From positions 6,303,701-6,367,700 of the forward strand of contig OZ014422.1 in NCBI GenBank assembly GCA_963965975.1: a DNA stretch of 64,000 nt, given 5' to 3'. Below the pieces are notes generated by a model. The model did not search any database, was not told the DNA's origin, and worked only from the letters and a program-made list of their open reading frames with translations. This DNA comes from Xestospongia bergquistia (taxonomy: Eukaryota > Porifera > Demospongiae > Haplosclerida > Petrosiidae). Both the position numbers and the translations under genes were made by a program. Below, piece by piece: positions 1 through 59,005 of this stretch. Position 1 is the first letter of the stretch. Each line of letters opens with the position of its first letter.

Positions 1-25
1 TCATAAAATTTATATTTCTTTGTAG

Positions 26-1543
26 CTTACAATATACAGTCTACAAGTACTATCACTAATAAAACTTGTATTGGTAAACTATCTAATAAGTTATTAAGAT
101 GTTTATTATTAAGTTTAAATTAATTAGCTCCTAATGGTAATGGTGTTGTACGTCTCTATCGTAATGGAGTCACCACATCCTCCTATTACTATGGTATAGT
201 ACAGATATGGTATAATGGAGAGTGGGGTAATATCTGTGATGATGATGACTATGATCAATATGAAGCTGATGTTATCTGTCATCAGTTAGGATATACTGGA
301 GCCTCTAGTTACTCTAGAGCTGAAGTAGTGAGGTTGGGTAGTTAAGCTCTTACTTTTAACCATTACAAATCTCTAGCTATGGTATTGACTACAGTCCTAT
401 GTTACTGGATCATGTAAACTGTGCTAACAACAACTACCTCACTATCTTACAGTGTTCCTACTCTACATACATATATAGTGGATGTAGATCCAACTATTAT
501 GATGCTACTGTGTCCTGCTGTGAGTTGGACAGTTTAATACATCTTATTACAACTTATATAGACACTACTAGGGTTTGGAACAGTAATCCTTACCCTGGTA
601 TGATACGCCTTCAGGGAGGTGACTTTGTTAATGAAGGACGTGTGGAGGTCTATTGTAATGGACAATGGGGAACAATATGTGATGATGGATTTGGTTCTAC
701 TGAAGCATCCGTAATTTGTAGACAACTTGGTCATTCTAACTACATCAAATATCAATACCTCCAAATGTATGGTTTTTATATATAGTATTTTCAAGTTCTA
801 TAACTCTATAGACCTGGTAATTCTACACAGTCTATATGGTTTGATGAATTTCACTGCAGTAGTTCTTGTAGTAACTGTGTTCAGTCCTGTCAACAATGTC
901 CTAATGTTGCAGCTCATGATTGTAATCATCTTGTCACTATTGAATGCAGTAAGTATCCTGTAGTATTGTTAATAGTGTTACTTTTATTTTAGCTCATGAT
1001 GGAAACCAGTCAGTATTTACAAATAATGAAACTTGTAAGATCAGTTCAGCTGTATTAGCTACTTCCTGTAAGTCTAAATATGTGCATTGTTTTTTTTATT
1101 TGTGTGTTGTTTTCTAAAATGTTTTCTTTAAATTTAACACAGCAAAAACAATGTCAGTTGTATATGGAGTTTTACCATCTTTCATTATAATTCTCTTACT
1201 AGTAATTGCTATAATAATAGCAGTTGTTTGTGTTAAGAGGAATCATCACAAACAACAATCATCTGACAGTCACAATGTTGAGATGGATGAATATTATAAT
1301 CATCCTACAACAAAATCCATTTATAATAGTGTTAACAACATTGATTATGACCCTACATCATCTGAACAACAGATCCATCATTTTCATTTGTTTGAAAACG
1401 TTAGCTATGGTGTTCAACCAGCACGTCCAAACATTACTGTGTGGCAGTCTTCTTTTTATCCACATGATAACATGTCACAATTAATTTCAGCCAAAATTGT
1501 TGTCTACTACTTGCAAAGTAACAGTAATATTTTGTTTATATAG
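26..1543 (+). CDS. SRCR receptor gene A, 3' end (5' part outside window)
   Basis: This is the end of a type I membrane receptor with scavenger receptor cysteine-rich domains. Exons are 26-73 (linker with one Cys), 128-332 and 377-519 (first SRCR domain), 562-766 and 812-948 (second SRCR domain), 993-1067 (linker), and 1143-1543 (transmembrane segment and cytoplasmic tail). The phases are consistent and give 404 codons including the stop. The membrane segment (about residues 8-30 of the ORF starting at 1151) is followed by a basic KRNHHK stop-transfer. Exon 812-948 lacks two codons (Glu-Asp) found before the last Cys in the paralogs. The tail is unusual: the middle Ser/Thr-rich part is deleted, and the stop used by genes B and C is lost, so translation runs about 20 codons into former 3' UTR. 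A likely poly(A) signal AATAAA lies at 1763-1768. Closest paralog in the window is gene D, judged from the tail. Confidence 0.85.
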
Positions 1544-1884
1544 GTTCATTATTTTATTATAATAATTCTTTAATGTACTTTCAACTGATACACATAGTCA
1601 GTATGTCTACAGCAAGTGGTTTACATAGGAGCTCATAATGATTGTCTTAATATAATACTAACAGCTGTGTTTGTATTAGGAAAGTTGTTACAGCTACAAA
1701 TCAACTAATGATATGTACAGACATGACTTAATAATATTGATGTTAAGAATGTATAATAACTCAATAAAAATATAGTTATAGTTTGTAGGTGTTCAGATTA
1801 ATGTACTTAAAAAGTTTATACATTTACAGCTCTGCAATAGTTTTGAATAAGTAATAAACAAACACATTTTCAAATTTGATTCAT

Positions 1885-1985: not shown

Positions 1986-2027
1986 TGATGGAGATAGAGG
2001 CAGTCTAATAAAAGTCCTTCACAACAG

Positions 2028-4792: not shown

Positions 4793-6500
4793 ATGACTGT
4801 CTACTACATGTCTTTGAGTGTAGTAGTTCTACTTTGTTTTCTACCATTATCTGCTGTTGGTAAGGACAATTAAAATTTAAATGATATTTTTTGCTTCACA
4901 GCTTTGTCAAATGGTGCAGTAATTCTCTCTCGATACAATTCAGCCTCAACATCTTATTACTATGGTATTGTGAGGATCTACTATAATGGATGGGGTAATA
5001 TCTGTGATGATTACTACTACAGTTCTACTGAAGCTAATGTCATATGTCATCAGTTAGGATATACTGGATATTCGAGTTACTCAAGAGCTGGATTAGTGAA
5101 GTTAGAATTATCTAATAATCAAACTCTATATACAATATACTTTCTATAGCTATGGCACTGATTCCTATTCTATGATAATGGATGACCTCAACTGTGCTAG
5201 TAGCAGCTATCTCACTATCTTTCAGTGTTCTTTCTCTACATACATTGATAGTGGATGTACTAACACTAACTCTTATGATGCTACTGTGTATTGCTGTGAG
5301 TATCAATATTTTCCTAACAATTACCATAATTGTTACAGATACTACTAGAATCTGGAACAGTAATCCTTTCAATGGTATGATACGTCTTCAGGGAGGTAGT
5401 TATTCTAATCAAGGACGTGTTGAGGTCTACTGTAATGGACAATGGGGAACAATATGTGATAATGGATTTAATTCTACTGATGCTCAAACTATCTGTAAAC
5501 AACTGGGATATAACTATTACTATAGTTATGATCACCTTAGTCTGTGAGTAATACAATAATACTATTGGTGATTATAAGCAGTATGTCTTAGTTGTCCACA
5601 ACACCTTCAAAATTATAAGGTTTTAAACAACATCATCAGAAATTATCATTTGCATCTGGTTATGTAGTGTAATCTCATTTCAATAATTAAACAATGGTCT
5701 CATGTAGTAGGCTATTGATCTATACTCCAATATCCACAAGGTTACTTTCTAATCTTAATATGCTCTCTCTTATTAAATATAACCTTTACTATATAAGGAT
5801 GCAGTAGAATTTGAAGATTAACGATCCAAGTTTATTTCTTTACTTTAAAATTGTTTTAATAAAAAAATCATTATGCTGCTACATGTCTAGAGTTCAAATT
5901 AGAAAATGCAATATTTAATATATAATTAATCCTAAATGCTTCATCCAAAACATTAAACCTTGAAACTTGAATTTATTAATTTACAATGAAATGTGACTTT
6001 ATTTATATAGATATATCTTTTTCATTATGCTATCATACTACTGTGCAGTAGTATGTTGCCAGCAAACTCTGCTCCTCCAACACTCTCAACTTTTAATGTA
6101 TGTTAAAATAAGACTGCAAAAAGCACATTAACAAACTGGTAGCTAATATTACCAAATTAACAGTTAACATTGATGATTACAAAGTTAGCAAAGGCAACAA
6201 ACTTGTGTTGTTAATTCACTAACGATCCTATTAATGAATTGCAAGTAAAGGAGTCATCAATTGCTTGAGCACTTTATTTTCCCTGCATTTCCTTAATTAA
6301 CTATATTTTATAATATATTTTATAATTTCCTATACACTTATGTTGTAATAAGAAATACCAGTATAATTGTTGTAGCTATGATACTATCTTTAGATCTTTA
6401 TCTGTTTCTTGGAAAACTAAATAATCATTCCTGATGATGAAGTAATTAAATTTAAAATTTTTTAATTTAATATAAATCAAAATAAATTACAGTTCACTCT

Positions 6501-6540
<40 letters not shown>

Positions 6541-6798
6541 CCATAATATATATATATATATTATTTTTAATTGTTGTGATAATAAATATTAGTGTATTGT
6601 TTGTTGCTATGATACTGTTTTCCAAGAGATAAAGACCAATTCCTTTTTTTTGAAATTGTTAGTCACTTGTGATGATGAAGTAATTAAATCTTAAAATATT
6701 CGACTTAAGCTATAAATTATACTTCACTCTACTATAATCAGACATATGGTAGCAGTGCCTATGTAGGGATATAATATCCTAATGTATATGTATATATA

Positions 6799-6895
<97 letters not shown>

Positions 6896-9800
6896 GTACG
6901 TATATGTATATGTATACATTATGTGAATATTAAGAATGTCATTGTTTCACTATAATAGATCTGGTAGTTCCAGTCAACCAATTTGGAGTACAAACATGTC
7001 TAGTTCTTCCTCTGACACATGTTATGGTACTAGAAATTCCTGTCCATCAACGTCAGTTACTAGTTGTACTCACTCTGAAGATATCACTGTGGAATGTAGT
7101 AAGTAGAATATTTCTGTATTTGTAGAAACAACTTACTTCCTCTGTCCTTCAGCTTATAGTAGTTCATATAGCAAACCAAGTACAACTTATAGTACTTGTG
7201 GTAAGATTTCTTTAAAAGAGGGAAGCATTTAACAACACTTGTTTTATATAGGGTTTGGTAATGGTGTTGTACGTCTCTATCATTATGGAGTCACCTCATC
7301 CTCTTATTACTATGGTATAGTACAGATATGGTATAATGGAGAGTGGGGTAATATCTGTGATGATGATGACTTTGATCAATATGAAGCTGATGTTATCTGT
7401 CATCAGTTAGGATATACTGGAGCCTCGAGTTACAACAGAGCTTATTATTATTATTATCATCACTAGTTAGAACATCTTATACATAGTAATTTATATTAAA
7501 TTAACTACTTTATTTATTATTATAGCTACTATGACTACAGCCCAACATTACTGGATGATGTCAATTGCACTCACAACAACTACCTCACTATCTTACAGTG
7601 TTCCTATTCTACAATCATTGATAGTGGATGTAGTTCTAACTATTATGATGCTACTGTGTTCTGCTGTGAGTTTAACTATACATTTGATCCATTGAGATGA
7701 GCTTTATATAAATGTTACAGATACCACTAAGATATGGGACAGTAATCCTTACCCTGGTATGATACGTCTCCAAGGAGGTAGTTATTCTAATCAAGGACGT
7801 GTGGAAATCTACTGTAATGGACAGTGGGGAACAATATGTAATGATGGCTTTGATTTTAGGGATGCTAATGCTGTTTGTAAACAACTGGGATATTCTGGAT
7901 ATGTTAGCTATGATAGTCTGAACTTGTATGATCTATATAATATCTAACTCCTAATGTCATTAATATGTCCACTTAGACCTGGTTCCTATAAATCAATATG
8001 GCTGACAAAAATGAACAGTCACTCATCAGATAAATGTATTACATCTAGAAACTCTTGTCCATCAACTGCTGTTAGTAGTTGTACTCACTCTGAAGATGTC
8101 ACTGTGGAATGTAGTGTGTTAATGTAATAAATTAATGATTTAAAAGATTATAACAGTTTTTGTTTTGTTTAGCGAAGACATCAACTACTAATTATAACAC
8201 TGTGGACAGCTGTCAAGGTATTAGCTATCAATGAATTTGTATACCTTTTTTTCCTTAATATATATAGCACTAGCTGGTAATGGTGTTGTACGTCTCTATC
8301 GTAATGGAGTCACCTCATCCTCCTATTACAATGGTATAATTCAGATATGGTATAATGGAGAGTGGGGTAATATCTGTGATGACTCCTACTACAATCAGTA
8401 TGAAGCTGATGTTATCTGTCATCAGTTAGGATATACTGGATCCTCTAGTTACTCTAGAGCTGGATTAGTGAGGTTAGATATACTACTTGCATATTTAATA
8501 TTCAATGTTGTGTAGTTATGGCACTGACTACAGCCCAACAATACTGGATGATGTCAGCTGTCCTCATAACAACTATCTTACTATCTTACAGTGTTCCTAT
8601 TCTACATATATTGGTAGTGGATGTGTGAACAGCAACTCTTATGATGCTACTGTGCACTGCTGTTAGCATAAATATTGCCATAGCATTTATTATATTAATT
8701 TTGTTGCAGATGCTACTAGGATCTGGAACAGTAATCCTTATCCTGGTATGATACGTCTCCAAGGAGGTGATTTTGTTAATCAAGGACATGTAGAAGTGTA
8801 TTGTAATGGACAATGGGGAACAATATGTGATAATGGATTTGGTTCTGATGATGCTAATATCATTTGTAAACAACTGGGATATAGTGGATATGTTAGAATG
8901 AACTACCAGAATTTGTAAGATTTCTTATTGTATTTTTGCTCAGATTTTGAAGCTTGAGCAACATTGCAATATACTACATTATAATTTTTTAATAATCTCC
9001 CCATTCAGTGCAAAATACTATAGTATATATATATATATATAATTACAAATTTTATGTGTGTATTCATATCTATATAACATTTTTCTGTAGATCTGGTAAT
9101 GCTTCTAAACCAATATGGCTAACTGACATGAAAAGTGCATCATCAGACAAATGCCTTATATTTAGAAACATTTGTCCATCAACTTCAGTAAGTAGTTGTA
9201 CTCACTCTGAAGATGTGACCGTGGAATGCAGTAAGTATTATTATTTTCAAGTATATTAACCTTGCATCTATCTCTTTATAGCAAAAAATACTAGCAGTAC
9301 TAACCTAATCCAAACTTGTTCAGGTATAACTGTTGTCTACATTGAAATCACACGTTAACTAATGTATTAGGTCCTGCTAGTAATGGTGTTGTTCGTCTCT
9401 ATCGTAATGGTATTACCTCATCCTCCTATTACTATGGTATAGTACAGATATGGTATAATGGACAGTGGGGTAATATCTGTGATGATACTGACTATGATCA
9501 ATATGAAGCTGATGTTATCTGTCATCAATTAGGATATATTGGAGCCTCAAGTTACTCTAGAGCTGGATTTAGCAGGTATAACACTTTATTGTAATCTTAA
9601 ATTAATAGGTTAAATTTTTTAATCAGTTTAGGAAGAGATTACAATGAAATGCTTTTGGATAATTTGGACTGTCATTTTAATGACTACCTCACTATCTTAC
9701 AGTGTTCCTACTCTACATACATTGATAATGGATGTACTTCTAACTCTTATGATGCTACTGTGTACTGCTGTATGTATACTAACCACTATCATAGTATATT

Positions 9801-12800
9801 GTTGCTAATTATTATAGATACTACTAGGATCTGGAACAGTAATCCTTATCCTGGTATGATACGTCTCCAAGGAGGTGATTTTGTTAATCAAGGACGTGTT
9901 GAGGTCTATTGTAATGGACAATGGGGAACAATATGTGATAATGGATTTGGTTCTGATGATGCTAATATCATTTGTAAACAGCTGGGATATACTGGATATA
10001 TAAATTATGACCACCTGTCACTGTATGCAAATTAGATAATGCAATGTCATATTACTGTCATTTTAGACCTAATTATGGCACTGCTATATGGATGACTAAT
10101 GTCTATACCAAATCAACTGATCAATGTATTAGTACAAGAAATGCTTGTCCTACTTCACAAGTCACCAGTTGTTCCCATACTAAAGATATCACTATAGAAT
10201 GCAGTCAGTTACAACTACTGTATCTCGTAACATTTTTATTTCTTTTTAGCTTACAATATACAGTCTTCAAGTACTACCACTAATAACACTTGTATTGGTA
10301 AACTATCTAATAAGTTATTAATATGTTTATTGTTTATTTAAATTAATTAGCTCCTAATGGTAATGGTGTTGTACGTCTCTATCGTAATGGATTGACCTCA
10401 TCTTCCTATTACTATGGTATAGTACAGATATGGTATAATGGACAGTGGGGTAATATCTGTGATGACTCCTACTACAATCAATATGAAGCTGATGTCATCT
10501 GTCATCAGTTAGGATATACTGGAGCCTCTAGTTACTCTAGAGCTGGAGCAGTAAGGTAAGGTTATATTAAATAAGATAAAGTCCTTTCAACAAATCTTTG
10601 TAGCTATGGCACTGACTATAAATCAATGAAGTTAAATCGTGTTAACTGTCCTAACAACAACTACCTCACTATCTTACAGTGTTCCTACTCTACATACATA
10701 TATAGTGGATGTAGTTCTAACTATTATGATGCTACTGTATACTGCTGTAAGTTTGAATAATTTTCTTAGCAGTAGTTATTTCTTTGTGTTAGATACCACT
10801 AGAATCTGGAACAGTAGTCCATTTCCTGGTATGATACGTCTTCAGGGAGGTAACTTTGTTAATCAAGGACGTGTTGAGGTCTACTGTAATGGACAGTGGG
10901 GAACAATATGTGATAATGGATTTGGTTCTACTGATGCACAAACTATTTGTAAACAATTGGGATATAACTATTACTATAATTATGATCATCTTAGTCTGTG
11001 AGTAATACAATAGTAATTCCTTCCTTATTAAAATAGTCATTTGACATATTGAGGAAGTAGCTATATTTGATTAACTATACATAAGTGTTAATTTTATCAT
11101 GATACAGATCTGGATATTATAGTCAACCAATTTGGAATACATACATGTCTAGTACTTCCTCTGACACATGTTATGGTACTAGCAATTCCTGTCCATCAAG
11201 TTCAGTAACTAGTTGTACTCACAATGAAGATGTCACTGTGGAATGTAGTAATGCAGTTGTTTATTTTAAATGTAGAACTTCCTCTTTCTTCTTTAGGTTA
11301 TAACACTGCTTACAATGAATCAAAAAATATGATAACTTTCTGTGGTAAGTGAGGGGCTCCCATTATTACCAACAGCTGGATATTTTTCTTTGTAAAGATT
11401 CTCCTAATGGTAATGGTGTTGTACGTCTCTATCGTAATGGAGTCACCTCATCCTCCTATTACTATGGTATAGTACAGATATGGTATAATGGACAGTGGGG
11501 TAATATCTGTGATGACTTCTATTACAATCAATATGAAGCTGATGTCATATGTCATCAGTTAGGATATACTGGAGCCTCTAGTTACTCTAGAGCTGAATTA
11601 AGCAGGTTAGAACTTAAATGTCTTGCCATTATATAACAAAATATACAGCTATGGCACTGACTACAACACAATGTTACTGGATGAGGTCAACTGTGCTAAC
11701 AACAATTACCTCACTATCTTACAGTGTTCCTACTCTACAATCATATATAGTGGATGTAATTCTAACTATTATGATGCCATTGTGTACTGCTGTAAGTTTG
11801 ATTATTGCAATTGTATATTATCATGCATTATAATTTAGATACTATTAAAATTTGGGACAATAATCCTTACCCTGGTATGGTACGTCTCCAAGGCGGTACT
11901 TATTCTAATCAAGGACGTGTTGAGGTCTACTGTAATGGACAGTGGGGAACAATATGTGATAATGGATTTGATTCTGGAGATGCTAACACTATCTGTAAAC
12001 AACTGGGATATACTGGATACACAAACTATAGCCACTTAGAAATGTTAGTATTTGATTAATCATATCATCACAATTATGTTTGTTTAATAGATATAGACAT
12101 CCTCCTCAATACATTTGGATGACAGAACTAGAAAACAATTCATCATCAACTTGTATCAGTGAAAGTAACACTTGTCCTGCATCTCCTGTTGGTACTTGTA
12201 GTCACTCTGAAGATGTTACTGTTGTATGTGGTATGTTAATATACATGTGATCACTTATTACTAATGTACGCAATACAATACTTTCTTTACAGATTTTACT
12301 CCTAGTCAGACCAGTAATAACACTATAAACACTTGTTCCTTATTAAGTGACAAAATTGGTATGTAACATTTTGTTATAATGTGTATTACATGTAATTTAT
12401 TATAGTCCCGTCTGGTAATGGTGTTGTCCAACTCCTCCTAAATGAATCAACTTCATCCTTTTATTACTATGGTATAGTACAGATATGGTATAATGGAGAG
12501 TGGGGTAATATCTGTGATGACGATGACTATGATCAATATGAAGCTGATGTCATCTGTCATCAGTTAGGATATACTGGAGCCTCTAGTTACTCTAGAGCTG
12601 GAAATATGAGGTTTAAAGATCTCACTTCTTATTATTTTTTATTGTTTCTTTTAGCTATGGAATAGACTATTATAAAACTTTAATTGTTGAAGTCAACTGT
12701 ACTCATGATAACTACCTTACTATCTTACAATGTTCCTACTCTACAACCATTGATAGTGGGTGTACTGATAGTTATGATGCTACTGTGTACTGCTGTGAGT

Positions 12801-16249: not shown

Positions 16250-17530
16250 ATGAGAGGTTATTACAATTTTAAAGTGATAAATTCCACTATGTTTTCTACC
16301 ATTATCTACTATATTATGCATTATCTATTTTAGGTACCGGTATAAATGTGCTAAATTATGAGATAACACTGTCTCTCTTTATTGTTTGTACTATTGGTGT
16401 TGTTGGTAGGTAGTAGCTATACATATCAAGGAAGAGTAGAAATATGTGTTAACAATACATGGGATACTGTGTGTGATGATGACTTTGATAGTAGTGATGT
16501 TAGAGTCGTATGTCATACAAGGTAGTCATAATTGTTTTAGTGAAGATCTGAATGTGAGATATTCTGGAAGTAAAACAGGTTCATTGCTTAAATTAAAGGT
16601 ATATTCTGATTTATTTTGATATCTTTATACAGGAAAATGGTGATGTTCATCTAGTTAGTGGTTCTAATAATGGTTGGTCGTGTAGAAGTATGCAATAATA
16701 ACGTGTGTGGTACATTATGTGATGATTACTGTCATAATAATAATGACCCATCATTCTTTTAATAACATTAATTACAATGTTGAACCACCAGGTCCAAACA
16801 TTACTGTGTGACAGTCTTATTATTGCTAATTGTCCATTTGACAAACGTCACAAGTAACTTTAAAATTGATTGTCATCTTGTACTTGCAAAGTGACTTTAA
16901 CAGTTTGTTTATGTATATTAGGCTTGTTATTTTTATACGTATAACCACCTGCTGTAATTTTTCTGCTTAGGTTTGATTTGATTTGGTTCTTACTCATGAT
17001 AGTTGGTGAAGTGTAATAATATATAATAACTCCTATAAACCACTCTACTTTGGACTACTGACTATATGTATTAGTTATTACATTAAATAATACTAACATC
17101 AATGTATTAGTACAAGAAATGTTTGTCCTACTTCACAAGTCACTAGTTGTTCCCACACTGAAGATACCACTGTAGAATGCAGTCAGTTACAACTATTATA
17201 TCTCATAAAATTTATATTTCTTTTTAGCTTACAATGTACAGTCTTCAAGTACTATCACTAATAACACTTGTATTGATAAACTATCTAATAGGTTATTAAT
17301 ATGTTTATTGTTTATTTTATATTAATTAGTTCCTAATGGTAATGGTGTTGTTTGTCACTATCATTCACCTCATCCTCCTATTACTATGGTATAGAACAGA
17401 TCTATATTAATAGCAATTAGTATATAGTAAGCTATCATCTTTATAGCAATATTAACTATCATATTCAACCAGGAGGTCCACATTACTGTCTCATAATCTT
17501 ATTATTATCCACATCACAATTAGCTCGTTG
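16250..17530 (+). pseudogene. Collapsed SRCR receptor pseudogene
   Basis: Recognisable pieces are a degraded signal exon (from 16250, matching gene D), a first canonical SRCR exon (about 16395-16525) cut off before its end, and part of the second SRCR domain (about 16632-16745) with stops and indels. A receptor tail and 3' UTR follow (about 16755-16920). Then come an exon d plus linker and a truncated exon a (about 17098-17425), and another tail fragment (about 17440-17530). Almost all middle cassettes are gone and no long frame remains. It is a gene D-like receptor that died by internal deletion. Confidence 0.8.
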
Positions 17531-29900: not shown

Positions 29901-32900
29901 AATGCTTGTCCTACTTCACAAGTCACCAGTTGTTCCCACACTGAAGATATCACTATAGAATGCAGTCAGTTACAAGTACTATGTATATATCATAAAATTT
30001 GTATTTCTTTTTAGCTTACAATATACAATCTTCAAGTACTACTACTAATAACACTTGTATTGGTAAACTATCTAATAAGTTATTAATATGTTTATTGTTA
30101 ATTTTACTTAATTAGCTCCTAATGGTAATGGTGTTGTACGTCTCTATAGTAATGGAGTCATCTCATCCTCATATTACTATGGTATAGTACAGATATGGTA
30201 TAATGGACAATGGGGTAATATCTGTGATGACTCCTACTACAATCAATATGAAGCTGATGTTATCTGTCATCAGTTAGGATATACTGGAGCTTCTAGTTTC
30301 TCTAGAGCTGGATTAGTGAGGTTAGTTATTGAACTTAACTTTTTCCCTTAACCATTATTAATGTTATAGCTATGGTACTGACTATAAATCAATGAAGTTA
30401 AATCGTGTCAACTGTCCTAACAACAACTACCTCACTATCTTACAGTGTTCCTACTCTACATACATATATAGTGGATGTAGTTCTAACTATTATGATGCTA
30501 CTGTATACTGCTGTGAGTTTGACAGTATAGTACATCTTGTATGTTATTACTACTTATAGATGCCACTAGGATCTGGAATAGTAATCCTTTTCCTGGTATG
30601 ATACGTCTCCAAGGAGGTGACTTTGTTAATGAAGGACGTATTGAAGTCTATTGTAATGGACAGTGGGGATCAATATGCGATGATGTATTCAGTTCTACTG
30701 ATGCTAATACTATCTGTAAACAACTCGGATATACTGGATACACAAACTATAGCCACTTAGAAATGTTAGTATTTGATTGATCAAATCACCACAATATGTT
30801 TGTTTAATAGATTTAGTCATCCTCCTCAATACATTTGGATAACAGAACTAGAAAATAATTCATCATCAACTTGTATCATTGAAAGTAACACTTGTCCTGC
30901 ATCTCCTGTTGGTACTTGTAGTCACTCTAAAGATGTCACTATTGAATGTGGTATGTTAATACACATGTGATCACTTATTGCTAATGTATGCAATTTCAAT
31001 TAAAGTTATTATACAATTTTTACAGATTTTACTCCTAGTCAGACCAATAATAACACTATAAACACATGTTCTTCGTTAAGTGACAATATTGGTATGTAAC
31101 ATTTTGTTATAATGTGTATTACATGTAATTTATTATAGTACCTTCTGGTAATGGTGTTGTCCAACTCCTCCTAAATGAATCAACTTCATCCTCCTATTAC
31201 TATGGTATAGTACAGATATGGTATAATGGACAGTGGGGTAATATTTGTGATGATGATGACTATGATCAATATGAAGCTGATGTCATCTGTCATCAGTTAG
31301 GATATACTGGAGCCTCTAGTTACTCTAGAGCTGGAAATATGAGGTTTAAAGATCTCACTTGTTATTATTTTTTCATTGTTTCTTTTAGCTATGGAACAGA
31401 CTATTATAAAACTTTAATTAATGAAGTCAACTGTACTCATGATAACTACCTTACTATCTTACAATGTTCTTACTCTACAACCATTGATAGTGGGTGTACT
31501 GATAGTTATGATGCTACTGTGTACTGCTGTGAGTATAAGCATGTTTTTTGTCAGTTTCAAAATTTGTTACAGATACCACTAGGATCTGGGACAGTAATCC
31601 TTATCCTGGTATGATACGTCTCCAGGGAGGTGATTTTATTAATCAAGGACGTGTTGAGGTCTACTGTAATGGACAATGGGGAACAATATGTGATGATGGA
31701 TTTGGTTCTACCGATGCCAATACTATCTGTAAACAATTGGGATATACTGGATATGTTATATATGGTCGTTTTAATAAGTAAAGCTTCCTTTTTTTCTGAT
31801 ATAACTTCCTTTCTTTCTTAGATCAATCACTACTTACCATCCAATATGGATGACATCAATGAAAAGTAACAGTGAAGACATTTGTATAGGGAGTAGTAAC
31901 TCTTGTCCATCATCTTCATTATATTCATGTAATCATAATCAAGATATCAGTATTGAATGCAGTAAGACATATAACAGTAATATGTTAGTGTTACTTAACT
32001 GTTCTGTTTTAGCTTATGTCACTTCTCAAGTTAATGAAAATGATATTAATTCTTGTGTGGGAGTAACTAATACTACCAGTAAGTTATGATAATTATGAAT
32101 ATAATTTTGATGCAAACAATGGCTTTAGCTCCTAATGGTAATGGTGTTGTACGTCTCTATCGTAATGGAGTCACCTCATCCTTCTATTATTATGGTATAG
32201 TACAGATATGGTATAATGGACAGTGGGGTAATATCTGTGATGATACTGAATATGATCAATATGAAGCTGATGTCATATGTCATCAGTTAGGATATATTGG
32301 AGCCTCTAGTTATCCAAGAAATGAGCAAAAAATGTCTATATCATTTATTTTGTCGAGCCTTGATACATTTGTTTCTTAGGTTTGGACAAGATAATAGCCC
32401 AATATTACTGGATAATGTCAACTGTCCTAACAACAACTACCTCACTATCTTACAATGTTCCTACTCTACAACCATTGATAGTGGATGTACTTCTAACTAC
32501 TATGATGCTACTGTGTCCTGCTGTGAGTTTAATCATATTGACACTTAGATTGTATTTATAAAATGTTACAGATTCTACAAGGATCTGGAACAGTAATCCT
32601 TATCCTGGTATGATACGTCTTCAGGGAGGTGACTTTGTTAATGAAGGACGCGTGGAGGTCTATTGTAATGAACAATGGGGGACAATATGTGATGACGGAT
32701 TTGGTGCTACTGAAGCATCTGTCATTTGTAGACAACTTGGCTACTCTAACTATATCAAATATAAACATCTCCAGAAGTAAGATTTTTATATATAGTATTT
32801 AAAATTTTATTATATTAATACTATAGACCTGGTAATTCTACACAGTCAATATGGTATGATGAGTTCCACTGCAGTACTTCTACTAATAATTGTGTTCAGT

Positions 32901-33586
32901 CCTGTCAACAATGTCCTAATGTTGCATTTCATGATTGTAATCATCTTGAAGATGTCACTATTGAATGCAGTAAGTTATAGAGAATATTCCATATTATTGT
33001 TAATTTTGTTAATTTTATTTAGCCTATGATGGAAACCAGTCAATAATTACAAGTAATAACACTTGTAAGATCAGTACAAATGTATTAGCTTCTTCTTGTA
33101 AGTCTAAATATGTGCATTGTATGTTGTTTTTAATGTGTTTTCTTTAACTTTAACACAGCAAAGACAGTATCAGTTGTGTCTGGAGTGGTGCCATCTCTCG
33201 TTATATTTCTCTTACTAGTAATTGCTATAATAATAGCAGTTGTTTGTGTTAAGAGGAATCATCACAAACAACAATCATCTGATAATCACAATTTTGAGAT
33301 AGATGTACATTATCATCATCCTACAACAAGTATTAAATTTAGTGAGGAGACAACACCCTCAGAAGTATACAAATCACGTTATGAAACTCCTCAACAAACC
33401 ACTTCAGTTCAGAGTACATCAGAAACATCCATTTATGATAATGTGGACATTGATGATGACCCTATATCATCTGAACAACAGACTGATCATCCTTATGTTA
33501 ATGTTAAGTATGATGTTAAACCAACAGGTCCAAGCATTACTGTGTCACAGTCTCATTATTATCCACGTGACACACGTCGCAAATAA
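17973..33586 (+). CDS. SRCR receptor gene C: signal peptide, 28 SRCR domains, TM, tyrosine tail
   Basis: A predicted type I receptor of 3,607 residues in 70 exons, the largest gene in the window. The signal exon is 17973-18039 ([20 protein letters not shown]). Two canonical SRCR domains follow (18098-18913), then thirteen cassettes listed separately, and the membrane and tail exon 33159-33586. The tail carries YDNV and YVNV motifs and is almost identical to that of gene B. The spliced length is 10,824 nt, divisible by three, with every exon open. Cassettes 1-7 form a higher-order array in which odd and even cassettes alternate. Between cassettes 7 and 8 the linker and SRCR exons are fused into one exon (27102-27363). 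Role: extracellular ligand recognition by the SRCR domains with signalling through the tail; the ligand is unknown. Confidence 0.85.
18098..18913 (+). other. Gene C canonical N-terminal SRCR pair
   Basis: Exons 18098-18253 and 18310-18486 encode SRCR 1 ([30 protein letters not shown]). Exons 18541-18702 and 18749-18913 encode SRCR 2. Each has eight Cys, including one just before the domain, unlike the cassette domains. The last donor is offset by a few bases relative to gene D, so its exact position (after 18913) is the least certain splice site here. Confidence 0.85.
18962..20062 (+). other. Gene C SRCR cassette 1
   Basis: Exons a 18962-19157, b 19203-19345, c 19390-19594, d 19645-19784, e 20021-20062. 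Odd-type cassette of the higher-order array, with a 236-bp intron before the linker. Confidence 0.85.
20121..21114 (+). other. Gene C SRCR cassette 2
   Basis: Exons a 20121-20325, b 20371-20516, c 20561-20765, d 20879-21018, e 21067-21114. Even-type cassette. Exon a has TRASS where the others have TGASS. Confidence 0.85.
21207..22314 (+). other. Gene C SRCR cassette 3
   Basis: Exons a 21207-21408, b 21454-21596, c 21641-21845, d 21896-22035, e 22273-22314. Odd-type cassette, nearly identical to cassette 1 from exon b through the linker, introns included. Confidence 0.85.
22373..23366 (+). other. Gene C SRCR cassette 4
   Basis: Exons a 22373-22577, b 22623-22768, c 22813-23017, d 23131-23270, e 23319-23366. 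Even-type cassette, 2,252 bp downstream of cassette 2 and nearly identical to it. Confidence 0.85.
23451..24580 (+). other. Gene C SRCR cassette 5
   Basis: Exons a 23451-23652, b 23698-23843, c 23888-24092, d 24143-24282, e 24539-24580. Odd-type cassette; its exon b has the even-type [11 protein letters not shown] ending, which suggests gene conversion with its neighbours. An ATT repeat precedes the linker exon. Confidence 0.85.
24639..25632 (+). other. Gene C SRCR cassette 6
   Basis: Exons a 24639-24843, b 24889-25034, c 25079-25283, d 25397-25536, e 25585-25632. Even-type cassette, 2,266 bp downstream of cassette 4. Confidence 0.85.
25717..26823 (+). other. Gene C SRCR cassette 7 (edge of the array)
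   Basis: Exons a 25717-25918, b 25964-26109, c 26154-26358, d 26684-26823. It follows the odd type through exon c, then diverges: the c-d intron is 325 bp and exon d is of a different subtype. Its linker is fused to the next cassette. Confidence 0.83.
27102..28094 (+). other. Gene C SRCR cassette 8, linker and exon a fused
   Basis: Exon 27102-27363 reads without interruption from a linker ([14 protein letters not shown]) into the SRCR exon a, so the intron between them is missing. Remaining exons are b 27414-27556, c 27606-27810, d 27863-27999, e 28050-28094. Exon a here has [14 protein letters not shown] in place of [14 protein letters not shown]. Confidence 0.8.
28148..29077 (+). other. 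Gene C SRCR cassette 9
   Basis: Exons a 28148-28352, b 28397-28542, c 28592-28796, d 28848-28987, e 29036-29077. The linker resembles that of gene B cassette 3. Confidence 0.84.
29134..30062 (+). other. Gene C SRCR cassette 10
   Basis: Exons a 29134-29338, b 29393-29532, c 29579-29783, d 29828-29964, e 30015-30062. [15 protein letters not shown] subtype, matching gene B cassette 4 and gene D cassette 5, including the GTCAGT donor and YNIQSSST linker. Confidence 0.85.
30116..31091 (+). other. Gene C SRCR cassette 11
   Basis: Exons a 30116-30320, b 30370-30512, c 30560-30764, d 30811-30950, e 31026-31091. The block shared with gene B starts near the end of exon c. Confidence 0.84.
31139..32078 (+). 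other. Gene C SRCR cassette 12
   Basis: Exons a 31139-31343, b 31389-31528, c 31573-31777, d 31822-31961, e 32013-32078. Counterpart of gene B cassette 7, including the divergent [10 protein letters not shown] strand. Confidence 0.85.
32129..33097 (+). other. Gene C SRCR cassette 13 (membrane-proximal)
   Basis: Exons a 32129-32333, b 32380-32522, c 32572-32776, d 32827-32969, e 33023-33097. Same membrane-proximal subtype as gene B cassette 8, with the PRNEQK exon end and QSCQQCP insertion. Confidence 0.85.
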
Positions 33587-35607: not shown

Positions 35608-38600
35608 ATGAGAGGTTATAACAATTTTAAAGTAATAACTCTACTTTGTTTTCTACCATTGTCTACTATAGGTAAGGATAATAGTGTATGTACTAAATGA
35701 TGAGATAACACTGTCTATCTCCATTAGGTTGTACTACTGGTGTTGTTAGACTGGTAAGTAGTACCTATAGATATCAAGGAAGAGTAGAAATATGTGTTAA
35801 CAATACATGGGGTACTGTGTGTGACAATGGCTTTGACAGTAGTGATGCTAGAGTTGTATGTCGTCAACTAGGACATTCATCAGGTAAAATATATCAATAA
35901 AATAAGTTTATTTAATTTAATTTATGATTTTTTATTCATCAGCTTATACATATTATAGCAATGCCTATTTTGGACAAGGGACTGGTCCAATATGGTTGGA
36001 TGATCTTAGTTGCTCTGGGTCTGAATTAACATTACTACAATGTTCTCATAGAGGAATAGGTAGTCATAATTGTGATCATAATAAAGATGTAGGTGTGAAC
36101 TGTTCTGAAAGTAAAACAGGTTCATTCCTTAAATTAAATATATCTGACTTATTTTGATATCTTTATACAGGAAGTTGTACTGATGGTGATGTTCGTCTAG
36201 TTGGTGGTTCAAATAGTACATCTGGTCGTGTAGAAGTGTGTGCTAATAATCAGTGGGGTACAGTATGTGATGATTACTGGGATAATAATGATGCTAAAGT
36301 TGTATGTAGAATGTTGAACTATTCTAGTTCTGGTAAGTATATATACTCCATATATTATGTAATTGTACTTTACTTCAGGTGCTATTGCTAGAGGAAGTGC
36401 TTACTTTGGTCAGGGGAATGGCTCAATATTATTAGATAATGTTCACTGTACTGGTAATGAAGCGTCCATCTTCTCTTGTTCTCATAGCAATATCGGGTCT
36501 CATAATTGTAATCATGGTGATGATGCTAGTGTTGTTTGTGGTAAGAATACAATAACATTTCACAAAAGGCCAAATTTTCATATATGTATAGCTGTGAGTA
36601 ATGGCACTATTACCCTTTATCGTAATGGAGTCACCTCATCCACCTATTACTATGGTATAATACAGATATGGTATAATGGAGAGTGGGGTAATATCTGTGA
36701 TGATGATGACAATGATCAATATGAAGCTGATGTCATTTGTCATCAATTAGGATATATTGGAGCCTCTAGTTACTCTAGAGCTGGATTAATGAGGTAAGTA
36801 AGTACAAACATAAACTGTTCTTTCTATATTTTGATGTTGTAGCTATGGCATTGACTATAATTCAATGAAACTAAATCATGTCAACTGTTCTCACAACAAC
36901 TACCTCACTATCTTACAATGTTCCTACTCTACATACATATATAGTGGATGTAATTCTGACTATTATGATGCTACTGTATACTGCTGTGAGTGATGTTCAC
37001 ACACATTTAAAAATATTTTTTGTTAATACTAACTTCAATACAGATACTACAAGAATCTGGAACAGTAATCCTTACCATGGTATGATACGTCTTCAGGGAG
37101 GAAGTTATTCTAATCAAGGACGTGTGGAAGTTTACTGTAATAAAAAATGGGGTACAATATGTAATGATGAATTTGGCTCTACTGATGCACTTGTGCTCTG
37201 TAAACAACTGGGATATACTGGATACATTAAATATAATCATTTGTTTTTGTGAGTGATCAGATGATATCCCATCACATATTATATGATTTATTATTACAGA
37301 CCTGGTAAATCCTTTCAACCAATATGGCTAACTAATATGAACAGTTATTTCTCAGACAAATGTATTATCTATAGTAACACCTGTCCATCAACTTCACTCA
37401 CTAGTTGTACTCATTCTGAAGATGTCACTTTGGAGTGTAGTAAGTTATTATTTTATTCTTTTTGTTTTTGACTATCTACTCTTTTAAGCCTACACTGACA
37501 CATCAGTTGTAAACACAGTAACTGAAAAAACTTGTAGAGGTAATAATTAAACAGATTATAATAATATTTGATATAAATAAATTTATGATAGGTCCTGCTA
37601 GTAATGGTGTTGTTCGTCTCCATCGTACAGGAATGACCCCATCCTCTAATTACTATGGTATAGTACAGATATGGTATAATGGAGAGTGGGGTAATATCTG
37701 TGATGATGATGACTATGATCAATATGAAGCCGATGTTATCTGTCATCAGTTAGGATATATTGGAGCCTCTAGTTACTCTAGAGCTGGAATAGTGAGGTTT
37801 GTTATATTCATCTTGTGTAATTAATATTCAATGTTGTGTAGTTATGGTACTGACTCTAATCCAATGTTACTGGATGATGTCAACTGTACTAACAACAACT
37901 ACCTTACTATTCTACAGTGTTCTTTCTCTACATACATTGATAGTGGATGTACTTCAAATTCCTACGATGCTACTGTATATTGCTGTATGTTCGACTTTTA
38001 TACATCATTGTAAGCTATATTTGTATAGATACTACTAGGATATGGAACAGTAATCCTTACTCTGGTATGATACGTCTTCAAGAAGGTACCTATTCTAATC
38101 AAGGACGTATTGAGGTCTACTGTAATGGACAATGGGGAACAATATGTAATAATGGATTTGATTCTACTGATGCTCAAACTATTTGTAAACAACTGGGATA
38201 TAGTGGATATATTAGATATGATCACTTAAATTTGTGAGTTTATTTATTGTTTTATCTAATCTGTAGTTATAACTTTTACTATAGACCTGGTAGTTCCTCT
38301 AAATCAATATGGCTAACTAACATGAACAGTTATTCATCAGATAGATGTATTACTTACAGTAACACTTGTCCATCTACTGCTGTTGGCAGCTGTAATCACA
38401 CTGAAGATGTCACTGTGGAATGCAGTAAATTATATACTGTAAACAGGTTTTTTTCATTGGTGTTTAATTTTTACAAAGCTTTTACTAATTTACTAATTTG
38501 TAATGTACATAAACATCTAATTCATGTATATATAATATGGTGGATCATTAGTTTTGTAAAATTAACCTCTGCATAAATCCAAGAAGTGATAATTAAATAA

Positions 38601-41600
38601 ATCCAATCTGTAGTATTATATTTTCTACATGTAGTGTATACATAATGTTGTTTTTTTTTACATTTTAGCTTCATCAAGGTCAAATACATTGACTCAAAAG
38701 ACTTGTACAGGTAATTAATAGGCTAGTAGGTATATTAATGATAAATACAATTGATGACCCTTTTCTGTATATAGGACCTCCAGGCAATGGTGTTGTACGT
38801 CTCTATCATAATGGAGTCACTTCATCCTCTTATTACTATGGTATAGTACAGATATGGTATAATGGACAGTGGGGTAATATCTGTGATGATACTGACTATG
38901 ATCAATATGAAGCTGATGTTATCTGTCATCAGTTAGGATATATTGGAGCCTCTAGTTACTCTAGAGCTGGATTAATGAGGTAAGTAAGTACAAGCACAAA
39001 CTGTTCTTTCTATGTTTTGATGCTGTAGTTATGATACTGACCACAATTCAATGAGATTAAATCATGTCAATTGTATTCATAATAACTACCTTACTATCTT
39101 ACAATGTTCCTACTCTACAATCATTGATAGTGGGTGTTCTGATAATCATGATGCTACTGTGTACTGCTGTGAGTATAAGTATATTTTTTGTCAGTTATCA
39201 GAGTTTGTTACAGATACTACTAGGATCTGGGAAAGTAATCCTTACCTTGGTATGATACGTCTTCAAGGAGGTAACTTTGTTAATCAAGGACGTGTTGAGG
39301 TCTACTGTAATGGACAATGGGGGACAATATGTAATGATGAATTTGGGTCTGCTGATGCACTTGTGCTCTGTAAACAACTGGGATATACTGGATACATTAA
39401 ATATAATCAATTCACTTTGTAAGTGATCAGATAATGTGTCATCACCTTTTTCACCATATATTATTACAGACCTGGTAGCTCATCTCAACCAATATGGCTA
39501 ACTAATATGAACAGTTATTCTTCAGACAAATGTATTATCTATAGTAATACCTGTCCATTAATGTCAGTAACTAGTTGTACTCATTTTGATGATGTCACTG
39601 TAGAATGTAGTAAGTTATTAATATATTCTATTTGTTTGTGACTATTTACTCTTTTAAGCCTTCACTGACACATCAGTTGTAAACACAGTAACTGAAAAAA
39701 CTTGTAGAGGTAATAATTAAACAGATTATAATAATATTTGATATAAATAAATTTATGATAGGTCCTGCTAGTAATGGAGTTGTACGTCTCTATCGTAATG
39801 GAGTCACCTCATCTTCTTATTACTATGGTATAGTACAGATATGGTATAATGGAGAGTGGGGTAATATCTGTGATGATGATGACTATGATCAATATGAAGC
39901 TGATGTCATTTGTCATCAGTTAGGATATACTGGAGCTTCTAATAATAATAGATCTGGATTAGTGAGGTGAAACTTGCCAAGTCAAAATATATTAATATCC
40001 ATCATGTATAGCTATGGTATTGACTCTAATTCAATATTATTTAATCGTGTCAACTGTGACAACAACAACTACCTCACTATTTTACAGTGTTCCTACTCTA
40101 CATACATATATAGTGGATGTAGTTCTAACTATTATGATGCTACTGTATACTGCTGTGAGTGATGTTTACGTATGTTAAGAAATATCTCTTGTTAATATTA
40201 ATTTAATTATAGATGCGACAAGAATCTGGAACAGTAATCCTTACCTTGGTATGATACGTCTCCAGGGAGCTAACTTTGTTAATCAAGGACGTGTTGAAGT
40301 CTACTGTAGTGGACAATGGGGAACAATATGTAATGATGAATTTAGCTCTGCTGATGCACTTGTGCTCTGTAAACAACTGGGATATACTGGATACATTAAA
40401 TATAATCATTTGATTTTGTCAGTGATCAGATGATATCCCATCACATATTTCATGATTTATTACTACAGACCTGGTAGTTCATCTCAACCAATATGGCTAA
40501 CTAACATGAACAGTTATTATTCAGACAAATGTATTGTCTATAGTAACACCTGTCCATTAACTTCAGTAACTAGTTGTACTCATTCTGAAGATATCACTGT
40601 AGAATGTAGTAAGTTATTATTATATTCTATTTGTTTGTGACGATCTACTCTTTTAAGCCTACACTGACACATCAGTTGTAAACACAGTAACTGAAAAAAC
40701 TTGTAGAGGTAATATTTAAACAGATTATAATAATATTTGATATAAATAAATTTATGATAGGTCCTGCTAGTAATGGTGTTGTACGTCTCTATCGTAATGG
40801 AGTCACCTCATCCTCTTATTACTATGGTATAGTACAGATATGGTATAATGGAGAGTGGGGTAATATCTGTGATGATGATGACTATGATCAATATGAAGCT
40901 GATGTCATTTGTCATCAGTTAGGATATATTGGAGCCTCTAGTTACAATAGAGCTGGATTAGTGAAGTATGCTATGTTATTTTACTTCTTAAATCAATATA
41001 CTGAACTTCTTTTGCAGTTTTGGGATTGATTATAATGAGATGCTTTTGGATAATTTGGACTGTACTCATGGCAACTACCTCACATTTTTACAGTGTTCCT
41101 ACTCTACACATATTGATAAGGGATGTACTGATAGTTATGATGCCACTGTCTCCTGCTGTAAGCTTTAGTGCTATGGTGATATGTTATTGCTAACTATTAC
41201 AGATACCACTAGGACCTGGAACAGTAATCCTTATCCAGGCATGATACGTCTCCAAGGAGGTGACTTTGTTAATCAAGGACGTGTTGAAGTATACTGTAAT
41301 GGACAATGGGGAACAATATGTGATGAAAGATTTGGTTCTGATGATGCTAACATCATTTGTAAACAGCTGGGATATACTGGATATATAAATTATGACCACT
41401 TGTTACTGTATGTAATGATAGAGAATATTCATTTTATTTTACAACATTCTTAGACCTGGCAATTCAACTGCTATATGGATGACTAATGTCTATACTAAAT
41501 CAACTGATCAATGTATTAATACGAGAAATGCTTGTCCTACTTCACAAGTCACCAGTTGTTCCCATACTGAAGATATCACTATAGAATGCAGTCAGTTACA

Positions 41601-43138
41601 ATTACTGTATCTCATAAAATTTGTATTACTTTTCAGCTTACAATATACAGTCTTCAACTAGTACCACCAATAACACTTGTATTGGTAAATTATCTAATAA
41701 GTTATTAATATGTTTATTGTTTATTTTACTTAATTAGCTCCTAATGGTAATGGTGTTGTTCGTCTCTATCGTAATGGAGTCACCTCATCCTCCTATTACT
41801 ATGGTATAGTACAGATATGGTATAATGGACAGTGGGGTAATATCTGTGATGATGATGACTATGATCAATATGAAGCTGATGTCATCTGTCATCAGTTAGG
41901 ATATACTGGAGCCTCTAGTTACTATAGAGCTGAAGTAGCAAGGTTAGCTAGCAAACTTAAGCTCTTTCATTTAACCATTACTAATGTTATAGTTATGGTA
42001 TTGACTATAGTCCCATATTACTGGATCACGTAAACTGTCCTAACAACAACTACCTCACTATCTTACAGTGTTCCTACTCTACAATCATTGATAGTGGATG
42101 TAGTTTTAACTATTATGATGCTACTGTGTCCTGCTGTGAGTTGGACAGTACAATACATCTTATTACTACTTATATAGATACCACTAGGATCTGGGATAGT
42201 AATCCTTACCCTGGTATGATACGTCTTCAGGGAGGTGACTTTGTTAATGAAGGACGTGTGGAGGTCTACTGTAATGGACTGTGGGGAACAATATGTGATG
42301 ATGGATTTGGTGCTATTGAAGCATCTGTCATTTGTAGACAACTTGGTTATTCTAACAATATCAAATATAAACACCTCCAAAGGTATGGTCTTATATATGG
42401 TATGTTAAAGTTCTATTATATTAATACTATAGACCTGGTAATTCTACACAGTTAATATGGTTTGATGAGTTCCACTGCAGTAGTTCTACTATTAACTGTG
42501 TTCAGTCCTGTCAACAATGTCCTAATGTTGCATTTCATGATTGTAATCATCTTGAAGATCTCACTATTGAATGCAGTAAGTATCCTATATTATTGTTAAT
42601 AGTGTTGCTTTTGTTTAGCCCATAATGAAAACCAGTCAGTAATTACAAGTAATGAAACTTGTAAGATCAGTTCACCTGTATCAGCTTCTTCCTGTAAGTC
42701 TAAATATGTGCATTGTATGTTTTTTTAATGTGTTTTCTTTAATTTAACACAGCAAAAACAGTATCAGTTGTTTCTGGAGTGGTGCCATCTCTCATTGTAA
42801 TTCTCTTATTAGTAATTGCTATAGTAATAGTACTTGTTTGTGTTAAGAGGAATCATCACAAACAACAATCATCTGATAATCATAATGTTGAGATGGATGA
42901 ACCCTATAGTCATCTTTCAACAAGTTTTAGATTTAGTCAGGATGCAACACCCACAGATGTATACAATTTACCCTTTGCAAATTCTCAACAAACCACTTCA
43001 GTTCAGAGTGAATCAGAAACACCCATTTATAAAAATGTTAACAAAATTGATGATGACCCTACATCATCTGAACAACAGATCAATTATTTTCAACCTTTTA
43101 ATAACGTTAACTACACTGGTCCAGACACTATTGTGTGA
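35608..43138 (+). CDS. SRCR receptor gene D: signal peptide, 14 SRCR domains, TM, shortened tail
   Basis: A predicted type I receptor of 1,857 residues in 36 exons. The start was chosen at 35608 because [19 protein letters not shown] makes a good signal peptide and joins in phase to the next exon (signal exon 35608-35671). Two canonical SRCR domains (35728-36540), six cassettes and the membrane/tail exon 42753-43138 follow. The spliced length is 5,574 nt. Compared with genes B and C the tail ends about 13 residues early, because the codon matching a Ser (TCA) is TGA at 43134-43136. Only one YxNV motif remains (YKNV); the second is FNNV. The gene is convergent with the RCC1-like gene at 43571, with about 430 bp between stop codons. 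A poly(A) signal candidate lies near 43347. Confidence 0.85.
35728..36540 (+). other. Gene D canonical N-terminal SRCR pair
   Basis: Exons 35728-35883 and 35943-36119 make SRCR 1; exons 36171-36332 and 36379-36540 make SRCR 2. It is homologous exon by exon to the N-terminal pair of gene C and to the decayed copy at 16395-16745. Confidence 0.85.
36592..37539 (+). other. Gene D SRCR cassette 1
   Basis: Exons a 36592-36793, b 36843-36985, c 37044-37248, d 37300-37439, e 37489-37539. Exon c has [11 protein letters not shown] where others have [10 protein letters not shown]. The linker is [16 protein letters not shown]. Confidence 0.85.
37592..38710 (+). other. Gene D SRCR cassette 2
   Basis: Exons a 37592-37796, b 37842-37984, c 38029-38233, d 38285-38424, e 38669-38710. 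From exon b on it resembles the odd-type cassettes of gene C, including the long intron before the linker. Confidence 0.85.
38775..39709 (+). other. Gene D SRCR cassette 3
   Basis: Exons a 38775-38979, b 39029-39168, c 39214-39418, d 39470-39609, e 39659-39709. The linker and following intron are near-identical to those of cassettes 1 and 4. Confidence 0.85.
39762..40708 (+). other. Gene D SRCR cassette 4
   Basis: Exons a 39762-39966, b 40012-40154, c 40213-40417, d 40469-40608, e 40658-40708. Exon a carries SNNNRSG in place of SSYSRAG. Exon c has VYCSGQWG. Confidence 0.84.
40761..41684 (+). other. Gene D SRCR cassette 5
   Basis: Exons a 40761-40965, b 41018-41157, c 41203-41407, d 41454-41590, e 41637-41684. 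[15 protein letters not shown] subtype with the GTCAGT donor and YNIQSST linker, as in gene B cassette 4 and gene C cassette 10. Confidence 0.85.
41738..42693 (+). other. Gene D SRCR cassette 6 (membrane-proximal)
   Basis: Exons a 41738-41942, b 41993-42135, c 42178-42382, d 42433-42575, e 42619-42693. Membrane-proximal subtype with the QSCQQCP insertion; closest to the single cassette of gene A. Confidence 0.85.
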
Positions 43139-43570
43139 CAGTTTTTTTTTATCCACATGGCACAGGTCACAACTAACTTCAACCAAAATTGTCTGCTACT
43201 TGTAAAGTAACTGTAATAGTTTTTAAAATTATTTTGGTTCATTATTTTGTATGTAGTAGTGCCAGCTGCTGTACTGATTTTTTTTCCTCTAAAGTTTGAT
43301 CAGCTATTATTACAATTGAAGATACACAATATTATTAGTGTTTTCATAATAAAGTAATAAAGTTGAATGGTATAATAGTTTTTAATGTACTTTCAACTTA
43401 TGCACATAGTCAGTATGTCCTTAGTTTTGATTAAGTAATTAACAAACATATTTCAAATTTTTATTTGTTTTGAAGTAAACTAATACTTTTTACTCATTTT
43501 TTAGAGTCTATTAATTAACACTTTTATTGAAATAAAACACAAAAACAATAGAACATTAACAAATGATTTA

Positions 43571-54208: not shown

Positions 54209-54242
<34 letters not shown>

Positions 54243-58828: not shown

Positions 58829-59005
58829 CTAGGGAACTCTGTCTGTGTCAGATAATACATCTGATATTAAAATATACACTAGTATAGTATTAAAGACTCC
58901 CCTTACTAGAAATGATTATTATTTATTACATTAAACTGAGAAGAACAACTCATGCTAATTTGTCATAGACACACCTCTAACTAGGCGTGTTTACCGGTAT
59001 TACTT

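Follow-up and report, generated by a model that had tools for sequence, protein, structure and literature searches.

A tandem cluster of SRCR receptor genes in the sponge Xestospongia bergquistia, built from a phase-symmetric five-exon cassette

A 64,000-nucleotide stretch of the genome of the sponge Xestospongia bergquistia (assembly GCA_963965975.1, 146.5 Mb in 21 contigs; contig OZ014422.1, C12 hereafter; C12:6303701-6367700, “the window”) carries a large part of a tandem cluster of genes made of SRCR domains. Together with its flanks, the window holds six intact genes, A to F, that contain 42 copies of a cassette encoding two SRCR domains and a linker, and, as read from the sequence, whole cassettes have been lost, duplicated, and multiplied in frame. 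Of the new evidence on the cluster, this reconstructed history of recombination is the strongest part. The genes probably encode type I membrane receptors, and the function that we consider most likely, with a confidence only somewhat above even, is that of multivalent pattern-recognition or scavenger receptors that bind microbes and signal via a short tyrosine-bearing tail.

Six intact genes with a common plan

The region modeled extended from 40 kb before the window to 10 kb beyond it (negative coordinates lie upstream of window position 1). Profiles of exons a to d were derived from two hand-read cassettes and iterated, and exons were snapped to splice sites and then joined; the gene models rest on splice sites and sequence. 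The six intact genes are all on the plus strand, span 71 kb, and are accompanied by decayed copies. They comprise 241 exons and 235 introns (median intron, 50 nt), with AG and GT at the intron borders in 240 of the 241 exons and a GC donor at exon f3 of gene B as the sole exception. The coding sequences of 5,463 (A), 4,656 (B), 4,098 (C), 6,480 (D), 10,824 (E), and 5,574 nt (F) are divisible by three and contain no internal stops. Since at 33% GC a stop is calculated to occur about every 13 codons in a random frame, these reading frames, with 1,365 to 3,607 open codons per gene, did not arise by chance.

All six genes open with a signal exon and close with stem exon g followed by exon h, which alone encodes the transmembrane segment and the tail; between them lie 4 to 13 cassettes (6 in A, 5 in B, 4 in C, 8 in D, 13 in E, and 6 in F). 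An N-terminal SRCR pair (exons f1+f2 and f3+f4) precedes the first cassette in A, B, C, E, and F, while gene D is devoid of it. A preliminary description of the window, made from its letters, had reported about 60 SRCR domains in four genes with at least 1, 8, 13, and 6 cassettes and spliced lengths of 6,480, 10,824, and 5,574 nt. Our independent models also count 60 domains (56 from 28 cassettes, 1+8+13+6, and two N-terminal ones each in E and F), match the lengths to the base in genes D, E, and F, and reproduce the exon phases given for the cassette. The cluster is real, well preserved, and was accurately described as far as the window reaches; its total is six intact genes, not four, and gene C, which the window edge cuts, totals four cassettes. 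The A-B and D-E intervals hold relics of two or more additional genes, and orphan pairs of a signal exon and f1 are found after A and before C. The 20 kb further upstream (L035 and L036) gave no match to the four exon profiles, and an Rfam scan of the window gave none either.

Cassette loss and gain

A tree of the 42 cassettes yields position classes T (last in the gene), P, Q, R, and S (the letters are ours; R is a grade, not a clade). Written as class strings, A is RSRQPT, B is SRQPT, C is QPPT, and F is QRQQPT; E reads RSRSRS, three unclassed, P, two more, and T, and D reads S, two unclassed, P, S, two more, and T. Gene B equals gene A minus exactly one cassette: the two genes are collinear in two pieces (93% and 90% identity) that overlap by ~600 nt of the first cassette of B, a segment that matches both the first and the second cassette of A in the genomic alignment. 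The junction lies inside exon a, and one switch at nt 139 to 164 accounts for 280 of the 298 informative sites. Gene C carries an extra, duplicated P-type cassette, its third, which is T-type up to exon a and P-type beyond. With cassettes 4 and 2 of gene C as parents, the counts run from 31:1 upstream through 8:9 in exon a to 0:32, 1:37, and 2:62 downstream, and a junction in exon a accounts for 177 of 183, 155 of 170, and 163 of 167 sites with three choices of parents. These are the two junctions mapped, and both fall in exon a. In gene E, a two-cassette unit has been tripled in steps of 2.25 kb at 93 to 96% identity (18967-24081 versus 21218-26347, 95.8%). The in-frame exchangeability of cassettes, previously deduced from phases, is thus borne out by exchanges that have left traces in B, C, and E.

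Between cassettes 1-2 and 3-4 of gene E (18967-23366), introns differ by 1.5% and silent exon sites by 7%, a contrast that might reflect the import of exon tracts from other cassettes; between cassettes 3-4 and 5-6 the contrast is less clear (introns 6.8%, silent divergence 0.107). A two-cassette SRCR unit is also repeated on contig C3 (C3:2934001-2954000, L020 and L021), in 4.05-kb steps at 97 to 99% identity. This array on contig C3 is of the same kind and much younger.

Silent divergence of exon a

Exon a stands out in its silent divergence (dS). The comparison pooled 31 cassettes in five classes, the other 11 of 42 being unclassed or chimeric. Between classes, dS was 0.19 for a (bootstrap, 0.16 to 0.22), 0.68 for b, 0.52 for c, and 0.97 for d; within classes it was 0.15, 0.36, 0.21, and 0.13, respectively. 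Exon d therefore tracks the classes closely, and exon a hardly does. A low mutation rate in exon a is an unlikely cause, because in recent duplicates this exon has collected silent changes about as fast as the others (dS of 0.093 in a, compared with 0.131 in b, 0.102 in c, and 0.057 in d). The low between-class dS of exon a would fit gene conversion. The intron that follows a departs from this pattern: mean between-class identity is 0.34 (T/P), 0.45 (P/Q), 0.34 (T/Q), and 0.70 (R/S), with 16 pairs each. Compared with seven other loci of the genome, exon a is half as diverged within the cluster as outside it (0.121 versus 0.239), while d is nearly equally diverged (0.325 versus 0.370). For 26 of 36 pairs of neighboring cassettes, compared over the stretch from a to d, exon a holds the longest exact match (p ~2e-7 against a coding-length null).

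Phases and cysteines of the cassette

Each cassette encodes an SRCR domain with six cysteines (a+b), an SRCR domain with seven (c+d), and a linker with one (e). The phases are 1-2 in 41 of 41 exons a, 2-1, 1-2, and 2-1 in 42 of 42 exons b, c, and d, respectively, and 1-1 in 35 of 35 exons e; the one fused e+a exon is 1-2. As the unit starts and ends in the same phase, it is a phase-symmetric (1-1) exon-shuffling module. This symmetry is not evidence of selection for change, being a requirement of every tandem array made of phase 1-1 extracellular modules.

Cysteine numbers are nearly invariant: six in 41 of 42 a+b domains (seven in the other) and seven in 36 of 42 c+d domains, with nine or ten in the six terminal cassettes. 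The linker after each cassette, whether e, stem g, or once the front of the fused exon, has exactly one cysteine in all 42 models and is otherwise variable (31 distinct sequences). The original donor score had favored cysteine; with Cys-blind splice matrices, 33 of 35 chosen linkers still rank first. Of the 38 c+d models from other clusters of the genome, 31 have seven cysteines, four have nine, two have eight, and one has six; this last looks like a modeling error. The best-scoring linker there has a cysteine in 30 of 31 gaps, several of which belong to near-identical copies of the contig C3 array.

The N-terminal f-type domains have eight cysteines (counted by eye). In f-type SRCR domains, a cysteine just before strand 1 is accompanied by a cysteine after VE[VI], a pattern recognized in 80 of 89 domains and by eye in the remaining nine. 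In c-type domains, whose strand cysteine stands one residue later, only 1 of 74 has a cysteine before strand 1. The number is 7 of 22 for domains with neither form of strand cysteine (a-type set aside) and 22 of 62 for a-type domains; all these counts refer to domains with a recognized first strand. The distribution suggests that an ancestral intradomain bond was split, with linker e keeping the first cysteine ahead of a and c keeping the strand cysteine, and a cross-domain disulfide between the linker cysteine and the seventh cysteine of c+d is likely.

SRCR domains of group A have six cysteines and more than one exon per domain. The a+b domain has both, with two exons in all models, while c+d departs from the six-cysteine rule. 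In the sponge Amphimedon queenslandica, a “Group C” has been described by seven conserved cysteines, one of them extra to the intradomain bonds (Peng et al. 2024, PMC10855680); compared by number, c+d agrees with it. With six and seven, neither cassette domain has the eight cysteines of group B. For the odd cysteine, Peng et al. offer the guess of polymer formation; the even number of cysteines per cassette would favor an intrachain bond instead.

A tentative mechanism for the cassette, and nucleotide constraint as its rival

Taken jointly, these data lead us to propose, tentatively and with odds that we place below even, that the cassette is a self-maintaining recombination device whose two domains are locked rigidly together. 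Gene conversion would keep the 205-nt exon a near-identical across old, divergent cassettes, and unequal crossing-over anchored there would add or remove whole cassettes in frame, leaving b, c, d, and the linker diverse; the ancestral disulfide, from an N-terminal cysteine to the VE[VI]C strand, would have been split between domains, the linker cysteine now pairing with the seventh cysteine of c.

Several results weigh against the reading of the cluster preferred here, this mechanism included. A PHI-like test of site compatibility gave no significant signal of recombination (p = 0.141), though ~41% of site pairs are incompatible at every distance; because of this outcome, the case for conversion is built on silent divergence and the mapped junctions. 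Local homogenization of exon a is missing at three of the seven other loci, with within/outside divergences of 0.194/0.207 at C12x, 0.292/0.276 at C1, and 0.382/0.359 at C12z. A higher-scoring alternative donor would exclude the cysteine from 2 of 35 linkers (8173-8217 and 28050-28094), and in a related gene elsewhere (L028, plus strand, 6240-7300) the closing c+d domain leads into a stem of another type, rich in cysteines and proximal to the membrane, with no evident linker cysteine. Finally, cassette dN/dS (the ratio of replacement to silent divergence) is well below 1.

Both the PHI-like test and the three loci without local homogenization would also fit the view that exon a only looks homogenized and is in fact held by nucleotide constraint, such as splicing or codon usage. 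The between-class dS of exon a is moreover alike for cassettes of the same gene (0.178) and of different genes (0.191). The ordinary silent change of exon a among recent duplicates, and its halved divergence within the locus next to the nearly equal values for d, speak against such constraint, which we regard as unlikely, though it is the most serious of the competing explanations.

Selection

Recent copies have dN/dS values of 0.37 (A3-6/B2-5), 0.39, 0.29, and 0.32 (the units of gene E), and 0.19 (D7-8/E12-13), and over pair bins of all 861 cassette pairs the ratio is 0.25 to 0.51. By exon type it is 0.31 for a, 0.31 for b, 0.35 for c, 0.49 for d, and 0.40 for e, none exceeding 0.5. The cassettes are thus under constraint with some looseness and not under broad positive selection. 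The preliminary description had seen in the locus a pressure to change the ectodomain, to be checked by dN/dS on the cassette exons; in-frame cassette change did occur, while diversifying selection is not what ratios of 0.2 to 0.4 in recent copies indicate. The N-terminal SRCR pair is looser (0.82 for A versus B, the only comparison). Divergence is faster between tails that differ in type (A/C, dN 0.138 and dS 0.093; E/F, dN 0.179 and dS 0.146) than between those of D and E (dN 0.006, dS 0.032).

Probable microbe-binding receptors

Each of the six proteins has just two hydrophobic segments, one N-terminal and a strong one close to the C terminus. The tails all bear tyrosines, in contexts such as SIYDNV, PIYKNV, and PYVNV, which may resemble SH2-docking motifs. 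The Pfam scan covered the first 718 aa of gene F, which matched the SRCR family (PF00530) in six stretches at 415.7 bits (cutoff, 26.1; E = 4e-127); only SRCR families were matched there, and CUB and zona pellucida domains, which would mark a DMBT1, were not. The remaining parts of the gene models are of the same exon types plus stem, transmembrane segment, and tail. Among proteins of solved structure, the best relatives of one cassette are CD163 (the best PDB sequence match), PIT54, and CD5-like, with MARCO and DMBT1 also included. The motif G[RH][VI][EK][VI]YC...W is present in exon c of all 42 cassettes; its commonest 11-residue form occurs in 29 and, taken with its flanks, is identical to the DMBT1 16-mer at 11 of 16 positions (PMC3100851).

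On these grounds, DMBT1/WC1-like receptors that bind microbes are the best reading of the cluster. In this reading, gene conversion and unequal crossing-over anchored in exon a would drive the cassette changes, and the linker cysteine would pair with the seventh cysteine of c. Ligands may be bound via the c strand, as DMBT1 uses GRVEVLYRGSW, and the number of cassettes may set avidity. DMBT1 is the closest functional precedent for a change in repeat number: humans differ in having 8 to 13 SRCR domains, and the form with 8 binds ~20 to 45% less bacteria than that with 13 (PMC5435793). Like DMBT1 (gp340, salivary agglutinin), the sponge proteins have SRCR domains separated by short Ser/Thr-rich linkers and a GRVEV.....W strand (PMC3100851, PMC5435793). 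Unlike DMBT1, which is secreted in mucosal fluids and combines group B SRCR with CUB and zona pellucida domains, they are predicted to be membrane anchored, with a two-domain repeat unit, one cysteine per linker, and neither CUB nor zona pellucida in the part scanned. For a membrane multigene family with a signaling tail, WC1 is the closest precedent. Cattle WC1 is a large SRCR gene family with a tyrosine tail and a role in the bacterial response, and WC1 and CD163 share with the sponge genes domain cassettes, an inter-domain exon, and tail tyrosine motifs (PMC2906472); the sponge cassette domains differ in having six and seven cysteines, rather than eight, and two exons each. WC1 has a constant thirteen genes that are highly conserved in sequence among the cattle examined (PMC3511184). 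In the sponge Halichondria panicea, expression of the pattern-recognition repertoire differs between individuals (PMC8242945), which fits the present locus and is no test of it.

An adhesive or structural role, in which repeat number would drift neutrally by unequal crossing-over without selection for diversity, seems to us improbable, slightly more so than nucleotide constraint on exon a. Tandem arrays self-expand, as in the near-identical contig C3 array, the cassette ratios indicate constraint and not diversification, and decayed copies lie between the intact genes. However, the full-length frame, the transmembrane segment, and the tyrosine tail are kept in all six genes, and the nearest solved relatives are immune scavenger receptors. 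There is little to recommend allorecognition, which the preliminary description had named alongside microbe sensing, with variable SRCR arrays telling self from nonself conspecifics: a multigene cluster with in-frame cassette variation between paralogues and fast tails of different type (dN/dS >1 for A/C, E/F, and D/F) would suit it, but the cassettes are on average under purifying selection and, unlike a single polymorphic locus, cassettes and c exons occur on several contigs. No finding made here supports allorecognition, and microbe binding is the better analogy.

Exon c occurs many times in the genome (at least 150 matches including this cluster, 150 of 2,966 candidates having been scored), with contigs C1, C2, C3, C12, and C14 among the matches listed, and full a-d cassettes are found at loci from C1, C2, C3, and C12. 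At the sensitivity used, the tail type is limited to this cluster (11 matches from 26 candidates, all at C12:6.28-6.35 Mb). The abundance of seven-cysteine SRCR domains, as in A. queenslandica (PMC10855680), agrees with a sponge genome; two short pieces of a cathepsin-like cluster, inspected for silicatein, were uninformative on this point, one of them having a catalytic cysteine.

The SRCR genes of A. queenslandica resemble those described here in their massive tandem expansion, one- or two-domain duplication units, and seven-cysteine domains, and differ in having mostly three exons per SRCR and, in the cluster detailed there, two to six SRCR domains (PMC10855680), compared with two exons per domain, 10 to 28 domains per gene, and a linker cysteine balancing each cassette. 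New here are the documented cassette changes, the silent-site contrast of exon a, and the linker cysteine matching the odd cysteine of c+d; a full-text literature search for SRCR together with intron phase gave no match. The large SRCR families of sponges and echinoderms have been counted more often than explained, and this locus reveals actual units of loss and gain and two junctions. If exon a is the recombination anchor, variation in cassette number would be predictable and could be genotyped with one amplicon, and the bookkeeping of cysteines offers a testable alternative to the polymer guess for the seventh cysteine.

Features of the window and neighboring genes

Table 1. Positions of the receptor genes and their parts (window coordinates)
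Feature	Position	Strand	Content	Basis
Gene C, 3' part	1..1543	+	Gene start at -3798	Exon profiles and splice models
Gene C, exon e	26-73	+
Gene C, last cassette	128-948	+	a 128-332, b 377-519, c 562-766, d 812-948
Gene C, stem g; transmembrane segment and tail h	993-1067; 1143-1543	+
Gene D	4793..14853	+	42 exons, 8 cassettes, coding sequence 6,480 nt, 2,159 aa
Gene D, signal exon	4793-4859	+	Spliced straight to first a, 4902-5100
Gene D, stem g; transmembrane segment and tail	14290-14364; 14426-14853	+
Decayed copy	16250..17414	+	Signal 16250, f1 16387, f3 16637, d 17093, a 17332; each damaged or partial
Gene E	17973..33586	+	70 exons, 13 cassettes, coding sequence 10,824 nt, 3,607 aa
Gene E, N-terminal SRCR pair	18098..18913	+	f1-f4, all exons phase 1-1
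Gene E, higher-order repeat	18967..26347	+	Two-cassette unit, ~2.25 kb	Genomic alignment
Gene E, fused linker+a exon	27102..27363	+	e/a intron absent; opens cassette 8
Gene E, cassette 10 (typical)	29134..30062	+	a 29134-29338, b 29393-29532, c 29579-29783, d 29828-29964, e 30015-30062
Gene E, stem g; transmembrane segment and cytoplasmic tail h	33023-33097; 33159-33586	+
Gene F	35608..43138	+	36 exons, 6 cassettes, coding sequence 5,574 nt, 1,857 aa
Gene F, signal; f1-f4; cassettes	35608-35671; 35728-36540; 36592-42575	+
Gene F, stem g; transmembrane segment and tail	42619-42693; 42753-43138	+

A 1.4-kb intron of gene D contains TG/TA repeats and diverged short repeats. A proline-rich open frame, for which Pfam gave no match, occurs at window positions 2165-2869 and at C12:6273386, 6285064, and 6297599, that is, once ahead of gene A and once in each of the gaps that follow genes A, B, and C; two copies stand behind an orphan signal exon and f1, and the frame was apparently carried along in gene duplications. 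Downstream of the receptor cluster, the window contains a fragment of an RCC1-repeat gene (48304-48798, minus strand), three adjoining protein-kinase genes, each a single open frame of 373 to 382 aa from stop to stop (52761-57622, minus strand), and a TRIM-NHL protein with RING, B-boxes, and NHL repeats in a single open frame (58985-60925, plus strand).

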